64,000 bases of DNA from contig CALXQL010000019.1 in NCBI GenBank assembly GCA_944390685.1, positions 1-64,000 of the forward strand. The letters run 5' to 3'. Position 1 is the stretch's first letter; every line of letters begins with the position of its first letter. The position numbers were made by a program, and so were the translations under genes. Of this stretch, positions 15,458-51,335 are shown one piece after another. This DNA is from an uncultured Alphaproteobacteria bacterium (lineage in GTDB: Bacteria > Pseudomonadota > Alphaproteobacteria > Rs-D84 > CACZYB01). The notes beneath the pieces are model-generated. The model saw only the letters and a list, made by a program, of their open reading frames with translations, did no database searches and was not told the DNA's origin.

Positions 15458-18400
15458 TTAAAATTTATAATCTAATCCAAACACTATTTGATTATTCTTA
15501 TAATCATTTTTAAAATCAGATATAAATTGAAGAGAAATATCAAATTGATTATAAAAATCCAAATTTAAATCAAGCCCAAATGAAAATTTATCTTTTGCAA
15601 AAGGCAAAGCAACAGAATTAAATTCCAAATCTGTATTTTCAAACATAGCTGTCAAATACACATCATCTACCATAAATCTAGAATACCCTATAAAGAATGA
15701 AGGATTAAAAACAAAATCTTCTAATTTTTTATTAAAAGCAAAATAAAAATATAAAGGTATTTGAGTCAAAGTGAAATCTTTTTGTTCAATGCATCTATTA
15801 ACACCCCCATCGCCATTTTCACAAAAACCTTCTTGATCTATATAAGAAATATTCAAACCAATTTTAGGATAGAAATAAAAATCATCAAATTTCCATTTAT
15901 ATCCAAAATCTAAAAATGTATCAACTATATAAGTATCAAAACTAGCATCTGTATTCAAACTTTCCTCTAAATTAACAAAATGGAAATAAGAATCATTTAC
16001 AAAAGATGAAAAACCAACCCCATAATCAATAAAGAAATTTTTTAACTCACTTAAAGCATAAACATCTACACCAAATAGAGCACTATCAATATCAATAACT
16101 TTGTCTTTTGAAGAAAAAGAAGAATCTCCCAAAACGAAGGCAATACCTAACAAAGAATTTTCACCTTTTAAAACTTTATCAAAACCAAAACTAACGCCAT
16201 AAAAATCATTATCAAAACCAATATATTCATTAACATTTTTTTGACTAATAGAAGAATGAAGAGGATATATCCATAATTCACTTTCAAGATAATCATTTTT
16301 AATAAAAGGATTTAATCTATCAATTATTGGTTGTCTTATTACATCATTGATTTGAGGCATAAACGCAAGAAAATCAGCATACTTTTCAACAGATAAATCA
16401 TTCAACACTTTTTTCAAAAAAGATACACTACCTATATCAGTATAAATGAAATTCACTACATCATTTAATTCTGTCTCTAAATTTAAAACATCATATAAAT
16501 CATTTACAACATCAGCGATTTGATATTCATTAAAGGATAATCCAGGCACTTGTTTAATATTAAGATTTGAAGGATTAACGACAATATATAAAACATTTTT
16601 TCCGGCATATTCACCACTTGTTTCTATTACCCATTTTGCAGTATAATTTGTAAATAAACTTTCTCTAAATTCAAGATGTTGAGCAATATTAAGAGGATTA
16701 GTAGTACTTTCATAATCAGCAATCAATACAGGAAATACATTTTCCTCTCCATCAATAATTCTACCATTAGAAACTACTAATATAGATGAATCATTTTCAA
16801 ACCCAACTTCCCCATTAACAATAAGTTTAGATTCTATTGCATTTTGATTTACAGAAGTATTTGGTTCTATGATAGCCAAATACCCACCATTATTTTGTAA
16901 AAATAAATCCCCATTTACTTTTAATATACTATTAACATTTGAAGTAATCCAGCCTCCATTACTTACAATCAAAGGACTATTATTTAAATTTATGCTTCCA
17001 TCACCAAACAATAATCCATTTACATTGAAATCATTTTTAACATCTACTATTGCTCCATCATATAACCCCAAAGAAGAATCAGCATAAATATTGATTTCAT
17101 TTGCAGATAAAGTAGCATTCTTGATTTCCACCTCACCTATCAAAGACTTATCAAAATCAGTTTTTACATTATTACCAACATTTAAAGTTCCATCAATATT
17201 AAAATCATAACTTAAATTTAAAATAGCATTATCTATTATACTAAAATTGCCATCACCAAGAATATTCATATTTTGTAAAGGTGTCATATTAGCTCTAATA
17301 AAAATAGTTCCATTATTTAAAAAATTTTGCGATAAAAAATTCTTCCACATAGAATCATCACTAGAAGCAATATCAATAATTGTATTCTTATCCCCCAAAT
17401 AAAAATTACCATTATTAGAATTCACACCATTGATATTATTCACAACATAATTATAAAAATATTCACCATCATCAATATTTGTTCCAATATTATATACAGC
17501 ATTTTTACCAAAAGAAAGCCTTCCACCTTCATTAAGATATATATTCCCAGCATTACTTAAAACAGAATCTATATAAACCCAACCACCATCAAGTATATTC
17601 AAATTTGAATCATATAATGATAAATTAACATTATTAGAAGATGATAAAACTTTCCATAAAGCCCCAGACGCTATATCTATATTTTGATTTCTAAAATCTA
17701 ATAACAAACTACCATAAATAGAATTGATAGTATAATTATTAAAAGAATTCATATTGCCAATTTGAAAATCATTATTCCCCAACAAAGATAAATTAGAATT
17801 ATTAAAAAATAACATTCTTGCTCTTTGATTTAATGAGCCATCATTTACGACAAAGATATTAGATAATAAATCAGCATTATTACTATTTGATAAATTTACG
17901 ATATCCGCATACTTACTTAAAAATATTTTTCCATTATTTAAAGAAGAATAAGAAGCATCATTTTCAAATACCAAAGAAGATCTATCATAAACATCATTAT
18001 TTGCACCTATGATATTAACTATACCATAATTTTGAAACTGACTATTTTCCACATTTATAATGGAAGACGGAAATATTGCTTGGTCAGTATTTCTTAAAGA
18101 AGATACAATATTGATAACACCTGCTTTATTATTTTGTAAAAGAGAATAAGAATACAAATATGAATCATAAAGATTTAAATATCCTATACCTCTTCCAAAA
18201 TTTTTTTCTCCTACAATAAATGAGCTATCATAACCAACCACTATTTGCCCTATATTTCTATTTGATAAATTATTACCATTCATATTAAAAAAGGCACGTC
18301 CATCTTGGGAAGAATATACATAAACCTCTCCATTATTTGATATTGAAATACTCCCACCTGGATTAACATTTAAAATTGTATTAAGAAGATTAAAATACTC

Positions 18401-18589
18401 ATGCTGAAACAATAATTTACCATTATTAGTAATTATCAAACCATTACTATCAGGCATAATACTTATACCGGAAATATCATTTCCAACAAAAAAAGAAGAA
18501 TTATTTATAAAAGAAGGAAGTTGCGTAGAGGAAATTCCATCTTTAATAAACATAATAAAAAATAGTAAAAAAAATTTTAAATATCTCAT
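15458..18589 (-). CDS. Autotransporter (type V secretion) outer-membrane protein
   Basis: A 1043-aa secreted protein with a signal peptide (about 1-21), a long Asn/Ser/Gly-rich passenger predicted to form a beta-helix (about 25-700, with many NNG and GNISL-like rungs), and a C-terminal beta-barrel (about 790-1043) ending in Phe, as outer-membrane barrels do. Passenger function (adhesin or other) cannot be told. I place the start at 18589 because GAGGT lies upstream; a longer frame to 18667 runs through the preceding gene's terminator and is not credible. It has no terminator between its stop and that of the convergent NlpD-like gene. Confidence 0.88.
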   Translation of the reverse strand: MRYLKFFLLFFIMFIKDGISSTQLPSFINNSSFFVGNDISGISIMPDSNGLIITNNGKLLFQHEYFNLLNTILNVNPGGSISISNNGEVYVYSSQDGRAFFNMNGNNLSNRNIGQIVVGYDSSFIVGEKNFGRGIGYLNLYDSYLYSYSLLQNNKAGVINIVSSLRNTDQAIFPSSIINVENSQFQNYGIVNIIGANNDVYDRSSLVFENDASYSSLNNGKIFLSKYADIVNLSNSNNADLLSNIFVVNDGSLNQRARMLFFNNSNLSLLGNNDFQIGNMNSFNNYTINSIYGSLLLDFRNQNIDIASGALWKVLSSSNNVNLSLYDSNLNILDGGWVYIDSVLSNAGNIYLNEGGRLSFGKNAVYNIGTNIDDGEYFYNYVVNNINGVNSNNGNFYLGDKNTIIDIASSDDSMWKNFLSQNFLNNGTIFIRANMTPLQNMNILGDGNFSIIDNAILNLSYDFNIDGTLNVGNNVKTDFDKSLIGEVEIKNATLSANEINIYADSSLGLYDGAIVDVKNDFNVNGLLFGDGSINLNNSPLIVSNGGWITSNVNSILKVNGDLFLQNNGGYLAIIEPNTSVNQNAIESKLIVNGEVGFENDSSILVVSNGRIIDGEENVFPVLIADYESTTNPLNIAQHLEFRESLFTNYTAKWVIETSGEYAGKNVLYIVVNPSNLNIKQVPGLSFNEYQIADVVNDLYDVLNLETELNDVVNFIYTDIGSVSFLKKVLNDLSVEKYADFLAFMPQINDVIRQPIIDRLNPFIKNDYLESELWIYPLHSSISQKNVNEYIGFDNDFYGVSFGFDKVLKGENSLLGIAFVLGDSSFSSKDKVIDIDSALFGVDVYALSELKNFFIDYGVGFSSFVNDSYFHFVNLEESLNTDASFDTYIVDTFLDFGYKWKFDDFYFYPKIGLNISYIDQEGFCENGDGGVNRCIEQKDFTLTQIPLYFYFAFNKKLEDFVFNPSFFIGYSRFMVDDVYLTAMFENTDLEFNSVALPFAKDKFSFGLDLNLDFYNQFDISLQFISDFKNDYKNNQIVFGLDYKF

Positions 18590-18651
18590 TTTATACCTCA
18601 AAAAAAATATAAAATGAAAACTAAATAAAAACAATAATACAAAATTCCTAT

Positions 18652-18675
18652 AAAAAAACCTCTTCAAAGAAGAGG
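18652..18675 (-). terminator. Terminator of the leucine-rich-repeat gene
   Basis: CCTCTTC/GAAGAGG stem (18659-18665 with 18669-18675), 3-nt loop, then seven Ts on the minus strand. It separates the LRR gene from the autotransporter gene. Confidence 0.85.
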
Positions 18676-20654: not shown

Positions 20655-21380
20655 CTAATCATCTAAATCAAGTATTCCCTTATACTTCTTTAAATAATCT
20701 AAAGCGGATTCACCTTTCTCATCTTTCGCATTAACATCAGCACCATTATCTATAAGAAGTTTTACAACATCAGGAGATTTAGCAAATATTCCTGCCCACA
20801 TCAAAGGAGTATACCCATACTCATCTTTCGCATTAACATCAACACCACTTTCTATAAAAGTCCTTATAATTTCTTCTGAATTTTCTTTACCATAAATTAC
20901 ATACACCCAAATAGGGAATTTAAAATCATCAGCACATTTAACATTAGGATCAGCTCCATTTTCTATAAGTAATTTGATTAGTTCAATAGATCTATCATTT
21001 AAAATAGCATAATATAAAGTAGTAGAACCATTTTTATTTTTAGCATTAACATCAGCACCATTATCTATAAGCAATTTTGCAATTTCTACATTATTTGCCC
21101 TCATCAAAATAGTATAACCATACTCATCTTCAACATTGACATCAGCACCTTGTTCTATAAGAGTCTTTATAACTTCAGGATTTTTATTATACATACTTGC
21201 AAGCATCAAAGCAGTATGACCATACTCATCTTCAACATTGACATCAGCACCATTTTCTATAGCTTTTTGAACATCACTAACACTTGCTTTTTCAATCCAA
21301 TTTGAATCTAATAATACATTTGCATTGGCAAAACTATTGAAACAAAATAAACAGAAAATAAATATAAAAAACTTTCTCAT
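20655..21380 (-). CDS. Secreted ankyrin-repeat protein
   Basis: A 241-aa protein with a cleavable signal peptide (about 1-20, ending FANA) and about six ankyrin repeats with the consensus GADVNxxDEYGxTxLM over roughly 30-235. Signal-bearing ankyrin proteins are periplasmic or exported binding proteins; host interaction is possible but not shown. The gene is only 43 bases downstream of fabF, and the fabF terminator lies between them, so expression would need read-through or a promoter inside fabF. GGAGGAG precedes the ATG. Two repeats are encoded by a 32-base stretch that is identical at 21118-21149 and 21220-21251, a possible site for repeat gain or loss. Confidence 0.88.
   Translation of the reverse strand: MRKFFIFIFCLFCFNSFANANVLLDSNWIEKASVSDVQKAIENGADVNVEDEYGHTALMLASMYNKNPEVIKTLIEQGADVNVEDEYGYTILMRANNVEIAKLLIDNGADVNAKNKNGSTTLYYAILNDRSIELIKLLIENGADPNVKCADDFKFPIWVYVIYGKENSEEIIRTFIESGVDVNAKDEYGYTPLMWAGIFAKSPDVVKLLIDNGADVNAKDEKGESALDYLKKYKGILDLDD
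21118..21251 (-). repeat. Identical 32-base direct repeat inside the ankyrin gene
   Basis: The same 32 bases occur at 21118-21149 and 21220-21251, spaced 102 bases (one 34-residue ankyrin unit). They encode GADVNVEDEYG. Identity at the DNA level points to recent duplication or gene conversion. Confidence 0.8.
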
Positions 21381-25748: not shown

Positions 25749-26330
25749 TTAAATTGATTTAGCTTTTTTCATATTTTGTTCAAGTTTTTTTTGCTCGTTT
25801 GCCAATTTTTTTTCGGCATCATCAATAGCTTTTCTCAAATCAAATTCGGAACAAATACCTAATAATACAGGATTTCTAGGTTGTATTTCAGCAATATTTT
25901 TATGGGTTCTTTCACGAATTGATTGCACTGTAGCTTTTGTTGTTCTAACTAACTTACAAATTTGAGCATCAGAAATATCAGGATGATTTTTAACCAACCA
26001 TAAAATGGCATCTGGTCTATTTTGCCTATGAGCCATAGGAGTATATCTAGACTTAACATTTTGACTTTTCTTAATAAATTCTTCGGAATTTTTATTAAGT
26101 GTAAGACGAAGGGCTGGATTCTTTTCACATTTTTCAATATCTTCTTTTGAAAGCATACCATTTAAAATAGGACTTAACCCCACTATATAATCAGAAGAAT
26201 CTCTATCTGCCAAAGCTTGCACTTCCAATGTATGCATACCACAAAAATCAGCGATTTGTTCAAAAGTAAGTGCAGTATTATCAATCAACCAAACTGCTGT
26301 TGCTTTAGGCATTAAAATTTTACCAACCAT
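25749..26330 (-). CDS. DUF1013 protein (TrcR-like cell-cycle regulator)
   Basis: A 193-aa soluble protein that matches the alphaproteobacterial DUF1013 family: N-terminal MPKATAVWLIDNTALTFEQI, then a HTH-like unit (EQIADFCGMHTLEVQALAD), and a second one (SDAQICKLVRTTKATVQSIR) near 118-137. The C terminus is a Lys/Glu coiled coil. I recall the family being annotated as a cell-cycle transcriptional regulator TrcR in some databases; DNA binding is inferred from the two HTH-like units. GTAGGAG precedes the ATG. It is monocistronic or precedes rpoD, 108 bases away, and is divergent from the exported-protein cluster. Confidence 0.85.
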   Translation of the reverse strand: MVGKILMPKATAVWLIDNTALTFEQIADFCGMHTLEVQALADRDSSDYIVGLSPILNGMLSKEDIEKCEKNPALRLTLNKNSEEFIKKSQNVKSRYTPMAHRQNRPDAILWLVKNHPDISDAQICKLVRTTKATVQSIRERTHKNIAEIQPRNPVLLGICSEFDLRKAIDDAEKKLANEQKKLEQNMKKAKSI

Positions 26331-26470: not shown

Positions 26471-27937
26471 ATGAAATCAAAAAAATTAACACTAACAACC
26501 CTTATAATAAGTAGTATTTCTGCAATAACTACAACAGATTCTTATTCCCAACGTCGTGAACGTGCTGTAAAAAATGTAAGCATAAAATCAACAAGTAAAA
26601 AAAATTCTGTTGGGCTTATCACACCTAATACAACAATAATTTGTAAAAATCCTGGTGATCCAAATTGTATTGGACCAAATGATAATGTACCAATTCCACC
26701 ATTTGCTTGTCCAACTGGTCAAAAAAAAGATGCTAATAACAATTGTGTATGCGAAGATAGTAATTTAATAGTTAATCCAGAAAACAAAACACAATGTATT
26801 GCAAAAACAAGTGATAATATAGTTGCAATAAAAAAAGAATGTGGAAATGTTTTGATAAAGGCTGTTCAAGCACAATGTGAAAATTCTTATACTCATAATG
26901 GTTATGGTGGTTATAACGATAGTGAATACAAATGTTATGATCCAAATGAATTATTTGCCCTATTTGATACAAGTAATCTAAATTTATATGTAAATGGTAA
27001 AGCCTATAAATATGATGAAGTATGTTATACATATACAGAAGATTTATTAACAAGCATTGCAAAAGATTATGAAATAACTGGTGCAAATTCCATTGCTTGT
27101 AAAAAGGCAAGAGCAATTGCAAATGCAAGTTCCGAATGTTTTGCCCTTGTTTTGGCAACCGGAAAGGCAACTGGTGCAACAAATGCAATAAAAGGAGATT
27201 TACAAAAAACTTGTGGCGTTGCAGGTTTAAATCAACAATATGAAAAATTATATGGAACATCTGCTCCAAGTGGTATTGATTTTCCAACCAATATACCTGA
27301 TTTATATGTATCTGCAGGAAAAATTGGTGTTGCCGATGGACTTGAGCTTGTTGGAAAACTTATGGATGGAAAAATCACAGATAAAACTGATACTTGGGAA
27401 AGGGATATAACAAAAATCAACAATTCTTATTTAAATCAAGTTTCAATTCATTGTGGTGATGCCTATACAGCTTCACTTCATAATGAAGATATACAATTAC
27501 TTGATGAAAAATCCTCTTTACAAAGATCTATTGATGAAAATGGAGCAATAAAGGGATCCCAAGTTTGGGCATTAAATCAAGCAAGTGTAATAGTTGGAGA
27601 AAACACTATAAACAAGGTAAAAAGGGAAGGGTTTTTCGGCACAACAGAAGATAGTGAAATTGTATATAGTGATATTCCAGTATATGAAATATCCCGCTTT
27701 GATAATGATAACTTATCAAAAACTATTAAAGACAATGATCCAAAAAGCGGTCGTTATCTATTCATTACAAATGATGAATACAGAATTATTGATATTGAAA
27801 ATAATACAAATGATTATAAATATACAACAATTAACTATGATGACACTTTAACTCTTTCAAATGAAAGTTTAAAAGCAATGTTAAATAAAAAAGAAAATAC
27901 AACTTTCAGTAGAACAAATGAAACCATAAGTAAATAG
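26471..27937 (+). CDS. Exported Cys protein, paralog A
   Basis: A 488-aa protein of unknown function with a signal peptide (about 1-26, ending DSYS) and a basic mature N terminus (QRRERA). A short Cys-rich motif (FACPTGQKKDANNNCVCED) follows. The body shares a pattern with the genes at 27953 and 31863: C-x(n)-C near ARAIANASSECF, a KTCGVAGLNQQYEKL block, then HCGDAY and a C-terminal block KGSQVWALNQASVIVGE. Conserved Cys suggest disulfides in the periplasm or outside. GAGAAAGAGGGAAA supports the start, preceded by TGCTATCAT as extended -10 (26431-26439 region). Probably co-transcribed with paralog B, 15 bases on. Confidence 0.75.
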   Translation: MKSKKLTLTTLIISSISAITTTDSYSQRRERAVKNVSIKSTSKKNSVGLITPNTTIICKNPGDPNCIGPNDNVPIPPFACPTGQKKDANNNCVCEDSNLIVNPENKTQCIAKTSDNIVAIKKECGNVLIKAVQAQCENSYTHNGYGGYNDSEYKCYDPNELFALFDTSNLNLYVNGKAYKYDEVCYTYTEDLLTSIAKDYEITGANSIACKKARAIANASSECFALVLATGKATGATNAIKGDLQKTCGVAGLNQQYEKLYGTSAPSGIDFPTNIPDLYVSAGKIGVADGLELVGKLMDGKITDKTDTWERDITKINNSYLNQVSIHCGDAYTASLHNEDIQLLDEKSSLQRSIDENGAIKGSQVWALNQASVIVGENTINKVKREGFFGTTEDSEIVYSDIPVYEISRFDNDNLSKTIKDNDPKSGRYLFITNDEYRIIDIENNTNDYKYTTINYDDTLTLSNESLKAMLNKKENTTFSRTNETISK

Positions 27938-27952
27938 TAAAAGGAGCATTAA

Positions 27953-29164
27953 ATGAATAAAAAACTAATACTATTAACAACAATATTATCTATTATTGGC
28001 ATGGAAAGTTATGCAAGTAAAACCAATATTCGTCGTAATCTTTCCACACGAAATAATACACGTACAGCCTCATCTGTAAACCTTAATGGAACTATTACAA
28101 CAATAAATGCAAATGTTGAAGATACAACAAAATTAACAACTTATGATCCAAACACCCCTGCTCCAATTACCGATCAAATTGCAAAAAGAAATTGTGCAAA
28201 AATGGTAAGCAACGCAATGGATACATATTGTAAAGACAATAAATGCACAAATATAACTCAAATATATGCTAATTTAACATATACAGAAATACCAGGACAA
28301 GCAAACGAAATTTATTGTGCAAACTTTTTGGAAAGTTCAATAAAGGATTTATTATCCGCTCATAATACAAAGGATTTAAGCAACGAAAAAAATTGTAATA
28401 TAGCATTGGCAACATCTTTTGCTGCAGAAGATTGTTATTTATATGTTATGACTAATCAATCAAGCCAAGTAATAATAAATAAAGATGAATTAGAAAAACG
28501 CTGTGGTATTAACGCAATTAAAGAACAATATAAAAAAATAACAAAAGAAGAGATTTCAGAAAGTGATATAATACATGATGATTTAGCAAATTATTTCTCA
28601 AAAGTAGGAAATATTGGTTTTTCTGATTTACTTGCATATCCAGCAAGAGTTATGGATTTAAAAATTGACTTTAAAACATCTGCATTTCCAAGGGAATTAG
28701 TTCAACTTGTAAATACTATCAAATCCCAAGGAAATGTAATGTGTGGTCCTGATAGATATTCACAATTATACGATACAAATATGCCACTTGAAATAAAACA
28801 AACTTCATGGCAAAAAGCACGTGATGAAAAAGGATTATTTAAAGGAACTGGCGATTGGATTGCTAACCAAGTATCTGCTTTCACAGGCACAAATACAACT
28901 GATGAATATAAAGAAAAAGGTATGAAAACTTGGGGAATTAATTACAACAAATGTGAAAAACAATATGAAGAAACATTTGATGCAGCAACCCGCTCAACTC
29001 ATACTGATAAATTTAAAGAAGAATGGATAAAAGACTGCAAAAAAACATTAAGAGAAGAAAGTAGTACTCCAACAGAGGCAACCACTTCTACCTCAATAGA
29101 AGGAGCTACTACTCCAACAGAGGCAACTAGTACTACTACAGAAGAAACAACCGTAACTGAATAA
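27953..29164 (+). CDS. Exported Cys protein, paralog B, with Thr-rich tail
   Basis: A 403-aa exported protein, paralog of its neighbours at 26471 and 31863. The signal peptide (about 1-21, MESYA) is followed by an Arg/Asn/Thr-rich mature N terminus. Shared blocks are PAPITDQIAKRNCAKM, EKNCNIALATSFAAEDCYLY, KRCGINAIKEQYKKI, VMCGPDRYSQLYD and FKGTGDWIANQVSAFTG. The last 35 residues are almost only Thr, Ser, Glu, Pro and Ala with a repeated TPTEAT unit, encoded by an 18-base direct repeat (29065-29082 and 29110-29127). A tail of this kind could be extracellular and modified, but that is inference. AAAGGAG precedes the ATG and a strong terminator follows. Confidence 0.75.
   Translation: MNKKLILLTTILSIIGMESYASKTNIRRNLSTRNNTRTASSVNLNGTITTINANVEDTTKLTTYDPNTPAPITDQIAKRNCAKMVSNAMDTYCKDNKCTNITQIYANLTYTEIPGQANEIYCANFLESSIKDLLSAHNTKDLSNEKNCNIALATSFAAEDCYLYVMTNQSSQVIINKDELEKRCGINAIKEQYKKITKEEISESDIIHDDLANYFSKVGNIGFSDLLAYPARVMDLKIDFKTSAFPRELVQLVNTIKSQGNVMCGPDRYSQLYDTNMPLEIKQTSWQKARDEKGLFKGTGDWIANQVSAFTGTNTTDEYKEKGMKTWGINYNKCEKQYEETFDAATRSTHTDKFKEEWIKDCKKTLREESSTPTEATTSTSIEGATTPTEATSTTTEETTVTE
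29065..29127 (+). repeat. Direct repeat in the Thr-rich tail of paralog B
   Basis: TACTCCAACAGAGGCAAC occurs at 29065-29082 and 29110-29127, 45 bases (15 codons) apart, encoding S/T-T-P-T-E-A-T. The spacing keeps the frame. Confidence 0.75.
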
Positions 29165-29189
29165 AAAACTCCCTTTTGGGAGTTTTTTT
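29165..29189 (+). terminator. Terminator after paralog B
   Basis: AAAACTCCC-TTTT-GGGAGTTTT stem-loop followed by a T run, directly at the paralog B stop codon. Confidence 0.9.
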
Positions 29190-29198
29190 ATAACCTAC

Positions 29199-29227
29199 TT
29201 GACCGAAAATAGAAAATATGATATTAT
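29199..29227 (+). promoter_or_regulatory. Strong promoter with a start at the ATG (leaderless)
   Basis: TTGACC (29199-29204), exactly 17 bp, TATTAT (29222-29227) preceded by TG (extended -10). The expected transcript start is about 29234-29235, which is the ATG of the next gene, and there is no ribosome site. The in-frame TTG extension of that gene is the -35 box. Confidence 0.75.
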
Positions 29228-29234
29228 AATTTTT

Positions 29235-31217
29235 ATGAAGAAATTTCTTATAACATTATTTATTCTTATACTTTCGCCTTTATTTTTAATAAAAGGTGGA
29301 CTTGCAAACGAACCTGAAAAATCACCTATTGTGATTGATATTTCTCCTCAAACTAATACATCTTTAATAAATATAAAAAACGATTTTAAAACTGATATTT
29401 ATGATTATATATGTCAATCATCAAATCAAACAAGTGATGTAAAACTTAAAAATCAAATAACTAGTTGCACTCCTAACACAACAATAAAGGATTTATATAA
29501 TTGTGTTTGCAACGACACCACACAATTAAATGGTAAAATAAGTCCAATAATCAATTTTACTGGATTGAAAACAGACGATACTTTATCCAATCAATTCAAA
29601 CAAATAAATGAATTTTATAACGCTCTTGATTCAATCATTCTAATTGTAGATGTAAAAAATGAAATACAAACTACATTAAATGCATTGGAAGAAGCAACAA
29701 ATGCTCAAATCCAATCTTTAAAGGAAGAAATTAAAAATAAAATAAATTCCTTAAATTCTTTATTAAATGAAGAACATACTTTACGAAATAATGAAGAATT
29801 GAAAACAATATTACAAAATTTAAATCTTGATAAACATTTAGAAAATATTGAAACAGAAATGACAAAATCTAATGCTGATTTCAATAAAATACTAAATACA
29901 AAATATTCAAATCTTCCTAATAATACTGATGAATTAAATAAAATATTAAAAGAACTTGAAAAAGAAGAAAAAACAGCAACTTCAAACATTGAAAAATTAA
30001 ACAACGCCCTTCAAAAGAATAAAGAAGCCCAAATCAAAGCGAAAAAAGATGCTTTATTAAAGGCAAAACAAGACGAGGCAAAAATTTTAAAAGAAATAAT
30101 TGATATAGTATCTCCATCAATAAGTCCTCTCACAAAGGAAATAAAAGATGGAAACGATGTAAGTGAAAATGCGGCCTTAAACTCTAAACTATATCGTTTG
30201 GATATAAAACCTAATTTTATATTCAATAAACATAAAACAATAGAGGAAAAAGACAATCCAAAATTATTGGAAGAATTTACAACTGAAACTGAAAATACCT
30301 TAAAAAATATTGATCTTTTAAAAGAATTAAAAGATGATTTAAAAGAAAGAAATGATATTAAAAATAATTTAAGTGTATGTTCCAATAACATTGATGAAAT
30401 AACAAAAAGATTAAATATTTCATCTCTTTTAAATAATGGAATACCTCCAAAACATAACAAATATCCAAATGGATATGTATATTTAACACAAAGTTCAATT
30501 GAAACAAATTGTGCGACAAAGGAACGTCCTGTATTTTATATAGAAAAGGGATCTTCATTTAATTGTTCCACATCAAAATTCTTATATCCAACTGAAATTG
30601 AATATTTGAAAGGATTTTCATCATCAAAATGTAAAACTTGTGAAATACCACAAATAATGAGTATTGAAGAAGCACATGAAAAACAACAAATTTGTTATGA
30701 TAATTTAGAATTATTAAAATTATTAGAAAATATAATGAATAATTGTAAGGATAACAATAACAAATATTTGATTGAACCATCAAAGGCAATCACCACCTAT
30801 AAATCATTAGAAGATATTGAAAAATTCTGTAAGGATAAAAAGGCAGAATTAGAAAAATTAACACAAAATAAAATAGATGATGAATTATCAAACATAAAAA
30901 ATATATGTTGTAATGGATCTTCATTTACAAAATATTGTGAAGAAGAAGGTGCACTTAAAAATGGAAACATTTCAAAGTTAAGAACTATAAAGGCAAGTGA
31001 ACTTCCAACTCTTACAACCTTTATACAATCAAATGATTTAAAAAAGGCATCTTGTGATAAAATAGATTCATTATATAACGATTTAAAACCAATAATGAAC
31101 ATAAATTCTGCATCAAATTGTGAAGCAAAACGAAATGCTATTTCACAATTAACAAACCATAATTTATCACAAAAATCATATAAATATTATCAATTAAAAT
31201 TTAGTGTGTGTGAATAA
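29235..31217 (+). CDS. Exported coiled-coil protein with multiple Cys
   Basis: A 660-aa protein of unknown function. Signal peptide of about 25 residues (MKKFLITLFI..., ending GGLA). Cys pairs occur early (YICQSS, TSCTPN, NCVCND), then a long Lys/Glu/Asn-rich coiled-coil stretch covers roughly 140-300. The C-terminal half has more Cys (VCSNN, NCATKE, KCKTCE, NICCNG, KYCEEE). It is not an obvious paralog of A, B or C but lies among them, after its own strong promoter. Its stop codon overlaps the ruvA start (TAATG), so ruvA depends on it. The longer frame starting at 29199 is rejected because it contains the promoter. Confidence 0.75.
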   Translation: MKKFLITLFILILSPLFLIKGGLANEPEKSPIVIDISPQTNTSLINIKNDFKTDIYDYICQSSNQTSDVKLKNQITSCTPNTTIKDLYNCVCNDTTQLNGKISPIINFTGLKTDDTLSNQFKQINEFYNALDSIILIVDVKNEIQTTLNALEEATNAQIQSLKEEIKNKINSLNSLLNEEHTLRNNEELKTILQNLNLDKHLENIETEMTKSNADFNKILNTKYSNLPNNTDELNKILKELEKEEKTATSNIEKLNNALQKNKEAQIKAKKDALLKAKQDEAKILKEIIDIVSPSISPLTKEIKDGNDVSENAALNSKLYRLDIKPNFIFNKHKTIEEKDNPKLLEEFTTETENTLKNIDLLKELKDDLKERNDIKNNLSVCSNNIDEITKRLNISSLLNNGIPPKHNKYPNGYVYLTQSSIETNCATKERPVFYIEKGSSFNCSTSKFLYPTEIEYLKGFSSSKCKTCEIPQIMSIEEAHEKQQICYDNLELLKLLENIMNNCKDNNNKYLIEPSKAITTYKSLEDIEKFCKDKKAELEKLTQNKIDDELSNIKNICCNGSSFTKYCEEEGALKNGNISKLRTIKASELPTLTTFIQSNDLKKASCDKIDSLYNDLKPIMNINSASNCEAKRNAISQLTNHNLSQKSYKYYQLKFSVCE

Positions 31218-31819
31218 TGATATATAAGTTAAAAGGTATAATAGATACTATAACAGAAAATTTCATAATATTAGATGTAAATGGTGTTGGCTATGGAATT
31301 TATATTTCACAAAAAACAATTTCTCAATTGCAACAAAACACACCATTAACATTATATATAGAAACTATTTTAAGGGAAGATTCAATAACACTATATGGAT
31401 TTTCTACACCTTATGAAAAGGAAATATTTAATCTTTTAACTTCCGTTCAAGGTATAGGGCCTAAGGCTTCTATATCTATATTATCAGCATTAACACCGAC
31501 TGAAATTTCAACTGCAATATTATCAAATGATTCAAAAATATTCACGACAGCAAATGGAATTGGCAAAAAAACTGCGGAAAGAATAATCACAGAATTAAAA
31601 GATAAAATAACTAAAACAAATATAAATATAGAACTAACAAATCTCACAAAAACAATCAAACCATCAAGTATTGCCGAAGATGCTATTTCAGCATTATCAA
31701 ATATGGGATATACTCGTTCACAAAGTTTTGAAATCATAATGAAAATATTAAATGAAATTCCAGACATAAATATAAATGATTTAATAAAACTTTCATTAAA
31801 AGAAATAAATAAATTCTAA
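31217..31819 (+). CDS. ruvA: Holliday junction branch-migration protein RuvA
   Basis: A 200-aa protein with the OB-fold domain (MIYKLKGIIDTI, VNGVGYGIYIS), two helix-hairpin-helix motifs (VQGIGPKASISIL and ANGIGKKTAERII) and a C-terminal RuvB-binding domain. It tetramerises on Holliday junctions and loads RuvB. The expected partners ruvB and ruvC are absent from the window. The ATG overlaps the stop of an exported coiled-coil protein gene (TAATG), which places a recombination gene under the promoter of a secreted-protein gene. Confidence 0.95.
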   Translation: MIYKLKGIIDTITENFIILDVNGVGYGIYISQKTISQLQQNTPLTLYIETILREDSITLYGFSTPYEKEIFNLLTSVQGIGPKASISILSALTPTEISTAILSNDSKIFTTANGIGKKTAERIITELKDKITKTNINIELTNLTKTIKPSSIAEDAISALSNMGYTRSQSFEIIMKILNEIPDININDLIKLSLKEINKF

Positions 31820-31846
31820 AAACCTCTTTTAATAAAATTAAAATTA

Positions 31847-31855
31847 TGATATAAT
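31847..31855 (+). promoter_or_regulatory. Extended -10 promoter of paralog C (leaderless)
   Basis: TGATATAAT ends 8 bases before the ATG at 31863. The transcript should start at or one base before the ATG, and there is no ribosome site. Confidence 0.65.
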
Positions 31856-31862
31856 AAAAATT

Positions 31863-33212
31863 ATGAATAAAAAGATTATAACATATCTTATAACTACATT
31901 CTGTATATTAAATACAGATGTCTCTGCTTCACAAAGAAGAAGTAGAGCAAATTCCACCACAAGAAATGCAACTATAAGAAAAACTACAACAATAAATACT
32001 ACTAGTCTACCATTAACGATTGATACAACAAATTTAAATATAATAAATACAAACCCAAATACCTATAATCAAAATGAAATACAATGTGGGACACCTGCTC
32101 CAATTGATAATTTAATTGCAAAACGCTTATGTGCCACCGCCTACTCTACTGCCCTTGGAAAATATTGTAGTGAAACTGAATGTAAAAGTGCAATCAGCGT
32201 CGCTATGACAATGAATTTTGGTATCCCTTTATTAAAGGATATAAGTATAGATATAAACGGAACAAAATGTAGCGCTGATGGCTTAAATTCATTTTGTTCA
32301 AATTTTGCAGAGGAATTGGTGGAAGGACTATGGCCAATGTATTCTTCCCAAGCAATAAGGGAAAGAAAAAATTGTAATTTTGCAAAGGCAAAATTCGTCT
32401 CCGCTCAAAATTGTTTTAATTATATTTTAAGTGAAAAAAATAACACTGGATTAAATAATTTTTTTGATTCATCAAAAATAACAACTATGGATAAAAAAAT
32501 TGATGAACTTTGTGGTAGGGATGCAATAATCAAAAATTATAATATGATAAGTATAGATGAATGGACCACAAAAGATGATGAAACATTTTTTAATTCCATG
32601 AGTAATGTTGTATCGGGAAAAAATCTTGGATCCAATAAAAAATTATCATCAAGCATAGCCACACAATTTGCCAATATTGGTAATGCCAATTGGGATATAA
32701 CAGGAAAGGTTGGAAATTTTCTTGATGGCACATGGGATTTAAAAACCTCTTCATACCCACGTGAAATCACCACACTTGTAAATACTTTTATAACCGAAGG
32801 TGAAACTGCATGTGGAAATGATTTCAAAACCGAAATGCAAAACACAAACTTTGCACTTGAAAACAAACAATCCTCTCTTGAAAAGGAAATTGCTAAAAAA
32901 GGTTTGTTGAAAGGTCTCTTTGATTATTCATTAAATCAAGCAAGTGTAGTAATTGGTGAAGAATTAGCACAAGATATAAAGGATAAAGGTATATATGGAA
33001 AGATAAAGGAAAGTATGGAAAAAACACCAACAAAACAAAATTATACCTATACAATATCTTATATAACAAAACCATCAACATGGGATAATAACTCTATAAA
33101 TACAATTAAAAAGTTATTTGTAAATCAGGATATTTCACAATTAACAAGTGAAACCGCCATCAATTATGATAATATAAAAGAAATAATTGAAATAATACAA
33201 AACTTTAAATAA
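31863..33212 (+). CDS. Exported Cys protein, paralog C
   Basis: A 449-aa exported protein related to the genes at 26471 and 27953. Signal peptide (about 1-22, DVSA) and an Arg-rich mature N terminus (SQRRSRANSTTRN). Shared blocks are PAPIDNLIAKRLCATAY, KNCNFAKAKFVSAQNCFNY, ELCGRDAIIKNYNMI, TACGNDF and KGLFDYSLNQASVVIGE. Extra Cys lie around 115-135. Function unknown. Translation appears leaderless. The next gene, clpX, begins about 100 bases later with its own promoter-like TATTATAAT near 33271-33279. Confidence 0.75.
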   Translation: MNKKIITYLITTFCILNTDVSASQRRSRANSTTRNATIRKTTTINTTSLPLTIDTTNLNIINTNPNTYNQNEIQCGTPAPIDNLIAKRLCATAYSTALGKYCSETECKSAISVAMTMNFGIPLLKDISIDINGTKCSADGLNSFCSNFAEELVEGLWPMYSSQAIRERKNCNFAKAKFVSAQNCFNYILSEKNNTGLNNFFDSSKITTMDKKIDELCGRDAIIKNYNMISIDEWTTKDDETFFNSMSNVVSGKNLGSNKKLSSSIATQFANIGNANWDITGKVGNFLDGTWDLKTSSYPREITTLVNTFITEGETACGNDFKTEMQNTNFALENKQSSLEKEIAKKGLLKGLFDYSLNQASVVIGEELAQDIKDKGIYGKIKESMEKTPTKQNYTYTISYITKPSTWDNNSINTIKKLFVNQDISQLTSETAINYDNIKEIIEIIQNFK

Positions 33213-33308: not shown

Positions 33309-34559
33309 ATGACAGAAGATACAAAAAATATAAAATATTGTTCATTTTGTGGGAAAAGCCAACATGAAGCTGGCAAATTAATAGCAGGCCCAAATGTTTT
33401 TATTTGTGATAGTTGTATCACACTTTGTAGTAATATAATAAAGGAAGAAAACAAAAAATCCTTAACCGAAGGGACAAAGGATACTCCCACTCCACAAGAA
33501 ATGTTGGAACACCTTGATGATTATGTAATAGGACAAAGAAAAGCAAAAAAAGTTTTATCTGTTTCAGTTTATAATCATTATAAAAGACTATATAATTCTG
33601 CAATAAAAAACGATGTTGAAATACAAAAATCAAATATATTATTAATAGGTCCAACCGGAAGTGGTAAAACCCTTCTTGCAAGTACTTTGGCAAAAATTCT
33701 TGACGTTCCATTTACAATTGCTGATGCCACTACCTTAACCGAAGCAGGTTATGTGGGTGAGGATGTAGAAAACATACTCGTCCGCTTACTCCAAGCAACA
33801 AATTATGATTTGGAAAAGGCACAAAAGGGTATTGTTTACATTGATGAAATTGATAAAATATCAAGAAAATCTGATAATCCATCACTTACAAGGGATGTAA
33901 GTGGTGAAGGTGTGCAACAAGCTCTTTTAAAATTAATTGAGGGATCTATAATTTCTGTTCCACCCCAAGGTGGCCGTAAACATCCACAACAAGAATTTAT
34001 ACAATTTGATACATCAAATGTATTATTCATTTGTGGAGGAGCATTTGACGGCATTGAAAAAATCATTGAAAAAAGAACGACCAAAACTTCCATAGGTTTT
34101 GGTGCAAATATCCAATCTAAAAAAGAAAAAAACTTAACAGAGCTATTTTCAATGATTGAACCAGAAGATATAATAAAATTTGGAATAATACCTGAAATGA
34201 TGGGAAGAATGCCAATAATTGTAACTCTTGATGAGTTAGATAGAGAGGCTCTTTGTTCCATCTTAACAGAACCAAAAAATGCACTTATAAAACAATATAA
34301 GACCTTATTTTCAATGGAAAACGTTGAACTTGAATTCACCGATGATAGTTTGGAAGCCATAGCAGATAAGGCAATAAAAAGAAAAACTGGTGCACGTGGA
34401 CTTCGTTCAATAATTGAAAATCTATTACTTGATACAATGTTTACATTGCCAAGCAATAAAAATATTCAAAAGGTAATTGTCAATAGGGATGTAATTGAAC
34501 ACGATAAATCCCCAATAATAATTTATCAAGAAAAGAAAAAGGATAAAAAAATAGTTTAA
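33309..34559 (+). CDS. clpX: ClpXP protease ATP-binding subunit ClpX
   Basis: A 416-aa AAA+ unfoldase that feeds substrates to ClpP. N-terminal four-Cys zinc domain (CSFCGKSQ ... CDSCITLC, about 13-40), Walker A GPTGSGKT near 117-124, Walker [11 protein letters not shown] and a C-terminal domain with [12 protein letters not shown]. clpP is not adjacent, unlike in many relatives; upstream is an exported protein gene. AAAGG precedes the ATG and a clear terminator follows. In alphaproteobacteria ClpXP degrades cell-cycle regulators, so it may tie into the DUF1013 and GANTC observations, but nothing here shows that. Confidence 0.97.
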
Positions 34560-44304: not shown

Positions 44305-45780
44305 TTAATTGGACCAATTCATATTATCATTTGACGAATTACCAGTGCATTGTTGCTTTGCACATCTATAATATTCATCATAAATTAACCCAGGCATAGG
44401 ATCTACCATACCATCATAATTATTTTTAACGACTCTATAAATATCGGCATATTCATAACTCAATCCCCGCAACACAACGGAAAGAGGAGTTTTTTCAGTA
44501 ATGACTATATTACCAATACGATTTCCAAGAAATTGATCATTAACATTTTTTACCACCACATCAGATAAGTTAACCCTCACTGGTGAAGAAAGAATATTAT
44601 ATTTAGTTTTATTTTTTAAACTATAAATATTATTAAACACGAATCCAACTTTTGGAATACTGACCCCACCAATGGTAATTCCCATACTGCCACCACTTGC
44701 CAAATTGGTATCAATATTAACATTAGAAAGATTCATATTACCAAATTGAGCATAAATAGAAGAAAGTGCAGGTGTTTTAATCAAAGCCCCTACAAACAAA
44801 TTAACTGGCACATTAACAGATAATTTTTTTGCAGTGATAAAAGTGAATTTATCAAGCAATCCACTTATACTACTTGAAGAAGTCAAAAGATTCCCCATAA
44901 CTTGCAAAGTTTCTTCCAAAATGATAGAAGAAGTAGCCTCATCATCAAAACTTAAAGAAGGCTGATTTATACCATTAATAAATGATACGGAAGATTTACT
45001 TGCATCCATAACTTTATTTAAAGTTAATTGATCATCTACGGAAAGAATATTTACATCTCCCACACCTGATGCGGATAAAAATAAATCATTTACTTCTATT
45101 TTACCTTCCACACCTTTATCCAACCCTTCCACCCCAGCGGAAATAATAAAATTATTGATTTTATCAATATTATTAAGATTCATAAATAAATCCGTTCTCA
45201 TAGTAGAAGAACCAAAACCATTACGAGAAATATATTGATAATCTTTTTTTGCAAAACCAATTTTAAATACTATTGGAGGAGTAGCCCAACTTTCCCCCCA
45301 TCCAGCAGCGTCCAAAGACCAACTAGCTCCATAAATAATACCATCTTCCAAATATCCACCAAAACCTTTACTTTCCTTCACAATATCACGTATACGCATA
45401 TCAGGAATTTCAGGATTGCCATCAGCAATTATAATAGCATCATATTCAACATTACCATCACTTTTTTCCCTAGCCCTAACCTTAACTTTATAATTCTGTC
45501 CTATGATATTGACCTTTTTAAAATTTTTTGGAAGTCCATTTTCCTCCAATACAGAAAAAGGAATTTCACTAACCCCTAATTTAATATCAGGTTTTAACTT
45601 CAAATAATTTTCAGTTGCAGTTTTTAATTTAGTCATATCCTTTACTACTAATTGATTACGTAAAGTGTCAGACTTTTGCTTAATATTTTTTTGAAGTATA
45701 GGGAAAACAACTATCAAAATCCCTAACATGAGAAGTATTTCTAATAATATACTACCTTTATCATTTTTATGTTTATACAT
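44305..45780 (-). CDS. Large pilin-like protein 3 (type IV pilin N terminus)
   Basis: A 491-aa protein with a short basic leader, a prepilin site G9/S10, Glu14 at the +5 position and a hydrophobic helix (ILLEILLMLGILIVVFPIL). The remaining 450 residues are rich in Ser, Asn, Leu and beta strands and end with a Cys pair (YRCAKQQCTG). It is far longer than ordinary pilins (150-200 aa). Related proteins lie upstream in the same operon. Function unknown; it may be a minor pilin or adhesin carried by a type IV pilus-like fibre. The GGAG site precedes the ATG; no assembly ATPase or prepilin peptidase gene lies in the window. Confidence 0.72.
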   Translation of the reverse strand: MYKHKNDKGSILLEILLMLGILIVVFPILQKNIKQKSDTLRNQLVVKDMTKLKTATENYLKLKPDIKLGVSEIPFSVLEENGLPKNFKKVNIIGQNYKVKVRAREKSDGNVEYDAIIIADGNPEIPDMRIRDIVKESKGFGGYLEDGIIYGASWSLDAAGWGESWATPPIVFKIGFAKKDYQYISRNGFGSSTMRTDLFMNLNNIDKINNFIISAGVEGLDKGVEGKIEVNDLFLSASGVGDVNILSVDDQLTLNKVMDASKSSVSFINGINQPSLSFDDEATSSIILEETLQVMGNLLTSSSSISGLLDKFTFITAKKLSVNVPVNLFVGALIKTPALSSIYAQFGNMNLSNVNIDTNLASGGSMGITIGGVSIPKVGFVFNNIYSLKNKTKYNILSSPVRVNLSDVVVKNVNDQFLGNRIGNIVITEKTPLSVVLRGLSYEYADIYRVVKNNYDGMVDPMPGLIYDEYYRCAKQQCTGNSSNDNMNWSN

Positions 45781-45792
45781 TTAAAACTCCAT

Positions 45793-47163
45793 TTAAGGTA
45801 TAATTAAATTGTTAATTTTACTTTCCAAATCATTAAGTGCAGATGTAAATCCTGTTGCAAAAGTAGTTAAATTCACTTTATTTAAGATTTTACCATCACA
45901 ATTTCCAGGTGTATGACAAGCATCATAAATAACAACCGAAGCCCCAGCAGGCACATTTATTCTACCTGCATTTGTATTGAAAGAATTATCTTGATTGACT
46001 ATATGCCCATCTTTAACAGTCAAAGTATGTGCGGATAAATTATTTACATCACTTGCGGAAATTTCCATTCTTAAATTGGTTGGATCAGAATCTAAAGTAA
46101 GAGGTTCAATATTCAAATTTGTATTATAATTATTATACCCATCAAGCAATGAAATTTGCATATTTCTAGTTAATAAATTGGAAAGCTTTGCGATTCCCTC
46201 TACAATAACATTTGCACGGAAACTTGATAAAGATAAAGAAGAATTTTCCAACAAAGCATTAGGAGTTAAAAAATCATCTAATACAGAAGAACCAGATAAA
46301 GCGCCATTTGAATAAGAAGTTATTTTAAGCAAATCAGTCATAATATAAGCATCACTTGCAAAAGAAAATACACCTTTCAAAATGATACTATTATCAATAT
46401 TTAACTTACCTTCCAAATTACCATTATTAAATTTTAATTCACTAACGAAACCATCTTTTTGCACAGAAGATTTCAAATTAGATGTATTAATAGTCCCAAA
46501 ATTATTTATAGAATATCCCCCCAAACTCAAATTAACTAACATGGTATTACCATCTTTACCACCTTGATTATTTCTATAAAGATAATTAGAAGAGGCATAC
46601 TCATTTTCCAAATTAGTATCATCAATTTTAATCACAGCAATGAAATCACCAGATACATTAGATGCTATATTTGCAAAAGGTTCTGACCAAGCCCCTGTAA
46701 TTGAATAAGCATAATTATCTTCTTTATAACCAGCCGTATCACCAGCATATAATAAAGTCTGTTTAAATCCCATTTCATCAAGTCCAAGATAATCCATATA
46801 AATCACAGCAAATACATTAACTGCACCTTGAGCATCTTTAATATATTTAATTATCATATTATTTGTTAATTCCTCTGGAGTATCCTCATTTAAACCATAA
46901 TTATCAACCAAAGTTTTATATACATCTTTATTCAAACCGCCATTTGAACCATTGGGCCACTTTTCCTTTTCAATTGCAGCATAATTCATCATAGCCTTTT
47001 CAATCATTTTCAATTGCTTTGCGGTATTTATATACTTTACCTCATATAATTCTCTAAAAGAAAATCGCAAAACAACCGGTGTGATAATAGTCATAATTGC
47101 CAAAGCAAGAATAATTTCCATTAAACCTAAACCCGATTGATCTTTGTGATAAAATTTAATCAT
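45793..47163 (-). CDS. Large pilin-like protein 2 (type IV pilin N terminus)
   Basis: A 456-aa protein with prepilin site G11/L12, Glu16 at +5 and the helix LMEIILALAIMTIITPVVL. The body has NNGNLEGKLNIDNS- and LSSFRANVIVEGIAKLSN-like strands and a C-terminal Cys pair (DACHTPGNCDGK). I place the start at 47163 (AGGTGGA upstream); the longer frame to 47286 lies inside the preceding gene. The ATG overlaps the stop of the preceding gene by 8 bases (ATGATTAA), so translation is coupled. Paralogous to the two flanking genes by layout. Confidence 0.72.
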   Translation of the reverse strand: MIKFYHKDQSGLGLMEIILALAIMTIITPVVLRFSFRELYEVKYINTAKQLKMIEKAMMNYAAIEKEKWPNGSNGGLNKDVYKTLVDNYGLNEDTPEELTNNMIIKYIKDAQGAVNVFAVIYMDYLGLDEMGFKQTLLYAGDTAGYKEDNYAYSITGAWSEPFANIASNVSGDFIAVIKIDDTNLENEYASSNYLYRNNQGGKDGNTMLVNLSLGGYSINNFGTINTSNLKSSVQKDGFVSELKFNNGNLEGKLNIDNSIILKGVFSFASDAYIMTDLLKITSYSNGALSGSSVLDDFLTPNALLENSSLSLSSFRANVIVEGIAKLSNLLTRNMQISLLDGYNNYNTNLNIEPLTLDSDPTNLRMEISASDVNNLSAHTLTVKDGHIVNQDNSFNTNAGRINVPAGASVVIYDACHTPGNCDGKILNKVNLTTFATGFTSALNDLESKINNLIIP

Positions 47164-48475
47164 TTGTTCCACCTGCATTATTAGTATATAAAGCCCATAA
47201 TTCCAAAAGCTTATTATAAATATTTTGTAATTGAGTAGAAATACAATTTCCCCCTGCCCAACAAATATCAACCACTTCGGAAACACCAGAAAGATTTAAT
47301 TTACTACTACTACTTGGATCAAAATCACCATAACTATACATAGTTCCATCATATATATAAGTTTCAATTCCCTCATTATCCTTTAAATTGATAGTATTAA
47401 ATTTATTTGCCACTGGACCATTTGAATCCAAACTTTCAGCCACTACATCAGATGCACCAAAACTCCAACCACTATCAACATTTCCAGAAGATGAAACAAC
47501 ATTTAATTCACCTTCAACTACTAATTCATTTGTCTCCAAATTTTCTGCTTCCAAATCACCTGGATCTAATTCTATATTTGAAAATTCAGCATCTTGAACC
47601 TTCAAAGAATTTATATTAACAGTTTTAGGTTTGATTTGCATTTTTGCATCTGGGAAAGGAGCAGTATTTTCAATTGAAAAGACCCCATCTAAAACAGAAT
47701 CAGCAATACTCAAATTTTTTCCGGCAAGCCCAGCCACCTTCATACTACTTAATATATTGATGACAGTTCCATTTGCATTAAATACATCAATAAGGTTATT
47801 ATTATTTATATCTAAATTTGCCAACATAGTATTTACAACAACACTATCACCAGGTCCCTTATTAATATATAAATAATCAGAAACAGCAAAACCATCACTT
47901 ACAAACATAACCAAAGCACCTTGATTTCCAATAATTTTTGAAATTTCAGTTTTCAAAGTTGGAGATAATTTTGCCTTATAATTAGTTAATTCTGTATGAT
48001 CTATAGTAGAAAGCACAACACCTTGATCAAACAAATATTCACCAATACTATTTAATGTAATGTCATCAACATCACCATAAGCAAACACTGCAGCTTCAAT
48101 AATATCAGCCGGTTCATCAACAGTTCCTATTTGTTTTTTACAAGTAATAAAAGAATAAACTTGTCCAAATTTATTAGAAGTTGCAATTTTTTCACCACCA
48201 TAATCTTGTAATAAATTTATCATTTCATTACCAGTTTTAACCACACACCCATCTGGAATATCTGTTCTATCAAAAGAAATATAAGAAGTTACAGCCTTTT
48301 GAAGCAAAGTCATTTGAGTTATGACTTCTTCCCTATTTATAGATTCGTTATATTGACGTATTTGATTCATAATAACCGGAGTCATAGCAACCATAATAGC
48401 CAAGCCTAACAAAACTTGCATCAATACAGCACCGGATTGTGCTTTTTTCAAAAGATTTCTTGAATAAAAATGCAT
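47156..48475 (-). CDS. Large pilin-like protein 1 with Gln at position +5
   Basis: A 439-aa protein and first gene of the operon. The leader KKAQSG ends at G15, then A16-V-L-M-Q20: the +5 residue is Gln instead of the near-invariant Glu. The helix continues VLLGLAIMVAMTPVIM. The rest is beta-rich with a C-terminal Cys pair (DICWAGGNCIST). Loss of Glu at +5 is known in tip pseudopilins of the GspK type, which suggests a tip or initiating role, but that is inference. GAGGAGAGAGAA precedes the ATG. Confidence 0.72.
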   Translation of the reverse strand: MHFYSRNLLKKAQSGAVLMQVLLGLAIMVAMTPVIMNQIRQYNESINREEVITQMTLLQKAVTSYISFDRTDIPDGCVVKTGNEMINLLQDYGGEKIATSNKFGQVYSFITCKKQIGTVDEPADIIEAAVFAYGDVDDITLNSIGEYLFDQGVVLSTIDHTELTNYKAKLSPTLKTEISKIIGNQGALVMFVSDGFAVSDYLYINKGPGDSVVVNTMLANLDINNNNLIDVFNANGTVINILSSMKVAGLAGKNLSIADSVLDGVFSIENTAPFPDAKMQIKPKTVNINSLKVQDAEFSNIELDPGDLEAENLETNELVVEGELNVVSSSGNVDSGWSFGASDVVAESLDSNGPVANKFNTINLKDNEGIETYIYDGTMYSYGDFDPSSSSKLNLSGVSEVVDICWAGGNCISTQLQNIYNKLLELWALYTNNAGGTND

Positions 48476-51235: not shown

Positions 51236-51264
51236 AACACAGGTATTTTTACCTGTGTTTTTTT
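51236..51264 (+). terminator. Terminator of the H1-like gene
   Basis: AACACAGGTA/TACCTGTGTT stem (51236-51245 with 51250-51259), TTTT loop, T run following. Confidence 0.92.
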
Positions 51265-51335
51265 ATATTCAAACATTCTTTACAATATTAAAAAAATATA
51301 GTATCATTGTATTAAAAATAAAGAGAGAAAATACC

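Follow-up and report, generated by a model that had tools for sequence, protein, structure and literature searches.

The 64,000-nucleotide window analyzed here, positions 1 to 64,000 of contig CALXQL010000019.1 (assembly GCA_944390685.1) from an uncultured alphaproteobacterium of the order Rs-D84, carries a block of genes for exported, cysteine-rich proteins. Three of the proteins are paralogues, designated P1, P2, and P3. An earlier interpretation made from the letters of the window, hereafter the sequence-only reading, had placed four genes in this block, and all four were found where it put them. On the plus strand, P1 (26471..27937, 488 residues), P2 (27953..29164, 403 residues), and P3 (31863..33212, 449 residues, compared with 552-604 in its orthologues) each encode a signal peptide, an Arg-rich tail (QRRERAV... 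in P1, QRRSRANSTTRNATIRK in P3), and a core with eight cysteines. The fourth gene (29235..31217, plus strand), nested in a longer open reading frame that opens at 29199, encodes a fast-evolving coiled-coil-like exported protein of 660 residues. That reading did not mention a fifth gene inside the cluster, ruvA (31217..31819, plus strand), which encodes a subunit of the Holliday-junction helicase. The block is bounded on the left by the divergently transcribed trcR (25749..26330, minus strand) and on the right by clpX (33309..34559, plus strand), named from its sequence and its conserved position. The source genome, labeled G000, totals 0.93 Mb in 25 contigs and is 97.6% complete.

Within this genome, P3 matches P2 with an E-value of 5.4e-30 at 34% identity, and P1 with an E-value of 5.1e-15. 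Every motif block named in the sequence-only reading is present in the alignment of the three paralogues: NCNFAKAKFVSAQNCF / NCNIALATSFAAEDCY / ACKKARAIANASSECF in the first block, LCGRDAIIKNY / RCGINAIKEQY / TCGVAGLNQQY in the second, ACGNDF / MCGPDRY / HCGDAY in the third, and KGLFDYSLNQASVVIGE / KGTGDWIANQVSAFTGT / KGSQVWALNQASVIVGE in the fourth. The proposed paralogy therefore stands. Profile searches of the kind that the same reading had recommended were run across 201 genomes of the order, 126 of them good, and 385 genomes drawn evenly across the class Alphaproteobacteria, and they found relatives only in Rs-D84. Weak single matches to the P1-P3 profile in many Rs-D84 genomes resolved to one orthologous gene, P4, which in this family lies between prfB-like and alaS genes. 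Profile-to-profile comparison of P1-P3 with P4 by hhalign gave 96.9% probability, with an E-value of 1.8e-10 over 194 columns. An alignment of P1-P3 searched against the genome contigs found no relative, while one of P4 did find relatives. The P4 profile has matches in 184 of the 201 genomes of the order, including 123 of the 126 good ones, and none outside Rs-D84 in the class-wide sample. The window genome itself encodes P4 outside the window (C13:5329-6624), as well as a more distant member of about 700 residues, P5 (C18:8955-9704).

In a maximum-likelihood tree, P1, P2, and P3 form separate, fully supported groups within one clade opposite P4. The branching of species within P1 and P3 is the same as within P4, ((G001,G002),(G000,(G003,G005))), where G001 to G005 are congeners of the window genome; P2 resolves only part of this order. 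Because the paralogue groups are separate and the species order mirrors that of P4, the gene phylogeny indicates that duplication predates the split of these species and that inheritance has since been vertical, with the exact root made unsure by the long branches of P5 and the P4 sequences of Enterousia. By sequence comparison, then, P1-P3 arose by duplication within a family that spans the order and are not an isolated invention. The suggestion of a lineage-specific system holds in that P1-P3 are restricted to Rs-D84 in our samples, occurring in 6 of the 201 genomes of the order, but it must be amended in that the trio is one branch of the broader P4/P5 family. P1-P5 must be viewed as a real protein family that has not been described before; almost every genome of the order has it, and in this genus it has been triplicated.

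All 96 sequences collected for this family share a common core with eight core cysteine columns in the same order, preceded by a signal peptide and a low-complexity tail as judged by inspection and by a home-made rule. The core cysteines are C124, C136, C155, C185, C210, C223, C248, and C328 in P1; C81, C93, C98, C122, C148, C161, C184, and C264 in P2; and C90, C102, C107, C145, C171, C184, C217, and C317 in P3. An additional N-terminal cysteine region (C58-C109) occurs in P1, and two extra cysteines (C75 and C136) in P3. The eight columns are intact in all but two of the sequences: one P3 reads X at one position, and the P2 of G007, from another genus of the same family, has lost the equivalents of C102 and C107 (P3 numbering) together. 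Elsewhere in the alignment, columns 278 and 326 both hold Cys in 71 sequences and neither does in 25 (phi 1.0), while columns 818 and 859, in the C-terminal domain, both hold Cys in 78 sequences (phi 0.97), a pair absent from P1-P3; the 96 sequences are related rather than independent, so these counts represent few evolutionary events. Gain and loss in pairs is as expected of disulfides, because each event alters two cysteines at once. Predicted pairs are C102-C107 in P3 and, for P4 of Enterousia, C105-C139 and C409-C432 (open-reading-frame numbering of L145). Disulfide bonds most likely stabilize P1-P3, as the sequence-only reading had supposed, and the exported, disulfide-rich nature of the family is well supported at the level of sequence. 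Two other proteins of this genome are candidate oxidants only, an exported thioredoxin/glutaredoxin-like protein with a CPHC motif (C3:8392-8802; L155:8392-8802) and a small unclassified membrane protein with CAVC (C3:48491-48976; L175:9492-9977), which may possibly constitute an unusual disulfide-forming pair.

AlphaFold2 models were made for P3 and P4. The P4 model has a mean pLDDT (predicted local distance difference test) of 76.6, with a predicted helical core at residues 45-235 (block means mostly 74-98), an alpha/beta C-terminal domain at about residues 352-457 (block means about 84-95) that bears its own Cys pair, and a disordered tail and linker. The C-terminal part of P1 resembles this C-terminal domain but lacks its Cys pair. 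Foldseek found no fold relative for the P4 model, with best E-values of 0.56 in PDB and 0.16 in BFVD, and none in PDB for the P3 model (best E-value 5.4). A sequence search of PDB likewise returned no match at E<=1 for either the P1-P3 profile or the family profile. Searches of Pfam-A, NCBIfam, and PHROGs with P1-P3 and the coiled-coil protein gave only sub-threshold matches, and 44 family members scanned against family libraries yielded nothing above a curated cut-off, in agreement with the earlier judgment that no known family fits. The names Toast_rack_N, PI31, Bystin, P3A, and TPR_2 appeared among the weak Pfam matches and were rejected as sub-threshold and scattered.

Signal peptides here were called by eye and by the home-made rule. 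By eye, P1-P3 all begin with Sec-type signal peptides followed by stretches rich in Arg, Thr, and Ser, as the sequence-only reading had described. However, the tail is not special to this cluster, since about 15 further exported proteins encoded in the genome share it; it stands as a property of P1-P3 but not as a distinguishing one. In all, 20 exported proteins, P1-P3 included and mostly encoded outside the window, have a stretch rich in Arg/Lys and Ser/Thr/Asn after the signal peptide, and the majority of such proteins are rich in cysteine. Arg makes up 11.6% of the first 35 residues of these tails, compared with 3.1% of the proteome, and the net charge is +6 per 35 residues. The ratio R/(R+K) is 0.55 in the tails and 0.22 over the remainder of these proteins, an enrichment that is not attributable to chance (Fisher p=1.7e-15) and is largely not built in, because the proteins were selected on positive charge and not on Arg over Lys. 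A uniform tail rule finds 17 proteins in this genome, with a median of 11 Cys (proteome median 2), and four in 433 kb of an Enterousia genome, with a median of 24 Cys; it finds none in 200 kb each of two other Alphaproteobacteria. The pattern C-x6-[CA]-hydrophobic-x3-C, a likeness to P1-P5 at the level of a short motif, occurs in 11 proteins, nearly all exported, compared with 1.3 expected after shuffling (maximum 4). Ten further Cys-rich proteins were scanned and none had a Pfam family above cut-off.

Several other loci of this genome encode proteins of similar composition. At G000:C5:4193-9498 (L157), four more exported Cys-rich proteins with an Arg tail are encoded in tandem, and three have a C-x6-C-M-x3-C type motif. 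A row of large Cys-bearing membrane or exported proteins at G000:C3:10645-20211 (L155, L174) has CWxC motifs (SCWQCD, GCWVCG, DCWVCG), and may belong to a divergent secretion system; three of these proteins were scanned and showed no Pfam match. Exported proteins with Cys repeats of the CPAGxY type occur at contig ends (L155:212-1432, L202:9939-10664, L147:96-1235, L152:17893-18774, and others), apparently a repeat family that breaks assembly; they are eukaryote-like, the one in L155 matching Ephrin_rec_like with an E-value of 4e-16.

The order trcR (divergent), P1, P2, coiled-coil gene, ruvA, P3, clpX is identical in G000, G001, G002, G003, and G005. In G007, P1 and P2 are found beside trcR on one contig end, and P3 beside clpX on another. 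Neither the block nor ruvA is seen in G004, the sixth species of the genus; since this incomplete metagenome-assembled genome (MAG) lacks both, the absence is probably an assembly gap and should not be counted as evidence of block loss. Gaps between successive genes from P1 to P3 are 15, 70, 0, and 43 bases, and the ATG of ruvA overlaps the stop codon of the coiled-coil gene (TAATG); short gaps and this overlap suggest that at least part of the block is co-transcribed. Promoter and terminator scans of the block stayed near chance level and added no information. A functional part in the cluster is unlikely for ruvA, which genomes without P1-P3 carry at another location, and which is therefore a probable passenger.

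The coiled-coil protein, as the sequence-only reading had described it, combines heptad-like stretches with cysteines, 18 in number. Its profile finds full-length relatives solely in genomes that have P1-P3. Congeneric copies show about 25-36% identity to the window copy where BLAST aligns them, and good alignment is limited to the N-terminal ~130 residues. Across the paralogues and the coiled-coil gene, identity between species is about 25-61%, compared with about 70% for RuvA. By conserved gene order and phyletic range, this protein is a candidate partner of P1-P3. A further exported Cys-rich coiled-coil protein with no Pfam family is encoded at window positions 51255-53432 (plus strand), with 20 Cys in the open reading frame and relatives of 29-32% identity in G008 and G009.

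By sequence, the source organism is close to uncultured Alphaproteobacteria, many of which come from animal guts and some of which carry isolate names resembling those of termite-gut samples; termite guts are a known source of Rs-D84 MAGs (PMC11257099). The order also holds Candidatus Enterousia, and its members have been described as having reduced genomes, many hypothetical membrane-bound proteins, and no standard uptake systems, as being possibly partner-dependent, and as retaining rod-shape and peptidoglycan genes (PMC12306168).

The explanation we favor, held tentatively and rated just short of an even chance, is that these proteins display in the envelope a helical domain stapled by disulfides, and that their cationic tail grips an anionic polymer or a partner surface. 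Each of P1-P3 would be exported by Sec and lose its signal peptide, and the mature protein would fold into a mainly helical, rigid domain held by some four disulfides, leaving as its new N-terminus a disordered Arg-rich tail with Ser, Thr, and Asn. The ancestral single-copy member, P4, would perform a core envelope job across the whole order, while in this genus it would have been copied into three specialized versions, made from one block with the fast-evolving coiled-coil Cys protein. Together these would most likely assemble in the envelope or at the surface, where the tail grips lipopolysaccharide, peptidoglycan, or glycans of a partner cell, the rigid core and the coiled coil provide protein contacts, and a partner-dependent cell might benefit. 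Several results weigh against this explanation. The tail shows no conservation of its actual sequence; the AlphaFold2 model of P3 is of moderate quality (mean pLDDT 61.3, with about 70-89 in the helical core); neither DsbB nor VKOR was found in the genome; and neither an outer-membrane anchor nor a lipobox nor a sorting domain was seen, so that the proteins could equally well be soluble in the periplasm or sit at the surface. A role for P1-P3 as enzymes, inhibitors, or chaperones soluble in the periplasm, with the tail a mere linker related to translocation or charge, agrees with the missing anchor and with the second, confidently predicted alpha/beta domain of P4 and its Cys pair. We nevertheless consider it rather improbable, for conservation across the family falls mainly on Cys, Gly, and structural positions, and no conserved polar catalytic set stands out.

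The closest functional analogy for the favored envelope domain is chlamydial OmcB, a cysteine-rich envelope protein with a basic N-terminal adhesion segment that binds heparan sulphate (PMC2229832). The likeness is one of how the proteins might work and not of membership: both are exported and cysteine-rich, both have a basic segment close to the N-terminus of the mature protein, and both occur in bacteria with reduced genomes and a dependence on other cells, whereas the P1-P3 family has its eight conserved cysteines in a predicted helical domain and sits in Alphaproteobacteria that keep genes for rod shape and peptidoglycan (PMC12306168). No Pfam or NCBIfam match reached threshold for the family, OmcB having been compared through these library families and not directly. 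If the analogy were taken further, P1-P3 would be secreted proteins that adhere to a host or partner cell or act on it as effectors, binding through the Arg tail, and the fast evolution of the paralogues and the coiled-coil gene would fit such a role. The mature N-termini of P1 (QRRERA) and P3 (QRRSRA) also match by eye the heparin-type motif XBBXBX, but the orthologues lack it, so the match may be chance and is regarded here as a mere curiosity. P4, moreover, is nearly universal in the order and branches vertically, whether the host is a mammal, a bird, or an insect. A core function in the envelope accounts for this better than an effector specialized for one host does, and the adhesin explanation is accordingly unlikely. 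Disulfide-rich periplasmic proteins are also common in F-type conjugation systems (TraN, TraU, TraH, and similar), exported and rich in conserved cysteines as P1-P3 are, and the genome has secretin, T2SSE ATPase, TrbI, and TrbC/VirB2 genes. A VirB2/TrbC-like protein (L179:15480-16142; E-value 0.0029, below cut-off) even bears the same Arg-rich tail at its mature N-terminus, and three tandem genes at window positions 44305-48475 (minus strand) encode proteins of about 440-500 residues with type-IV-pilin-like N-termini. Such type IVb-pilus-like and type IV secretion-like genes keep open an accessory or structural role for P1-P3 in the secretion or type IVb pilus machinery. We judge this quite improbable, however, as P1-P3 are confined to few species and match no Tra, Trb, or Dot family, and neither the block nor P4 adjoins any secretion or pilus gene. 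A location of the cluster within a pilus or type IV secretion locus was rejected for lack of linkage, its neighbors being a sigma-70-like gene, trcR, ruvA, and clpX.

P4 has the homologous eight-Cys core but differs from P1-P3 in its order-wide range, its own conserved locus, and its Cys-paired C-terminal alpha/beta domain. A broader proposal, doubtful at present, is that Rs-D84 has its own envelope or cell-contact layer of exported proteins, each with an Arg-rich cationic tail and disulfide-stapled helical domains, of which P4 would be a nearly universal component and the block of P1-P3 with the coiled-coil protein a lineage-specific module. Were this true, the layer could be the physical interface of a partner-dependent lifestyle in an uncultured, reduced-genome order of mammal, bird, and insect guts that obtains building blocks from elsewhere. 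The combination of Arg tail and Cys domain looks like a trait of the secretome as a whole, one that would escape annotation pipelines, since none of its members matches a family. As a nearly universal, order-specific exported protein, P4 would serve as a marker of Rs-D84 and a direct entry point to its partner contact, and the way in which these cells construct or exploit their surface may well involve this family.

The middle gene of the tandem trio at 44305-48475 has a weak Shufflon_N match (E-value 1.2e-4, below cut-off), and a cluster with a secretin, a T2SSE ATPase, and a PilR-like gene lies at G000:C3:35-43 kb; these suggest an R64-like type IVb thin pilus in this genome. The window itself further encodes, both on the minus strand, an autotransporter with a clear beta-domain at 15458-18667 (PF03797, E-value 1.5e-26) and an exported ankyrin-repeat protein at 20655-21380 (Ank_2, E-value 1.2e-37).

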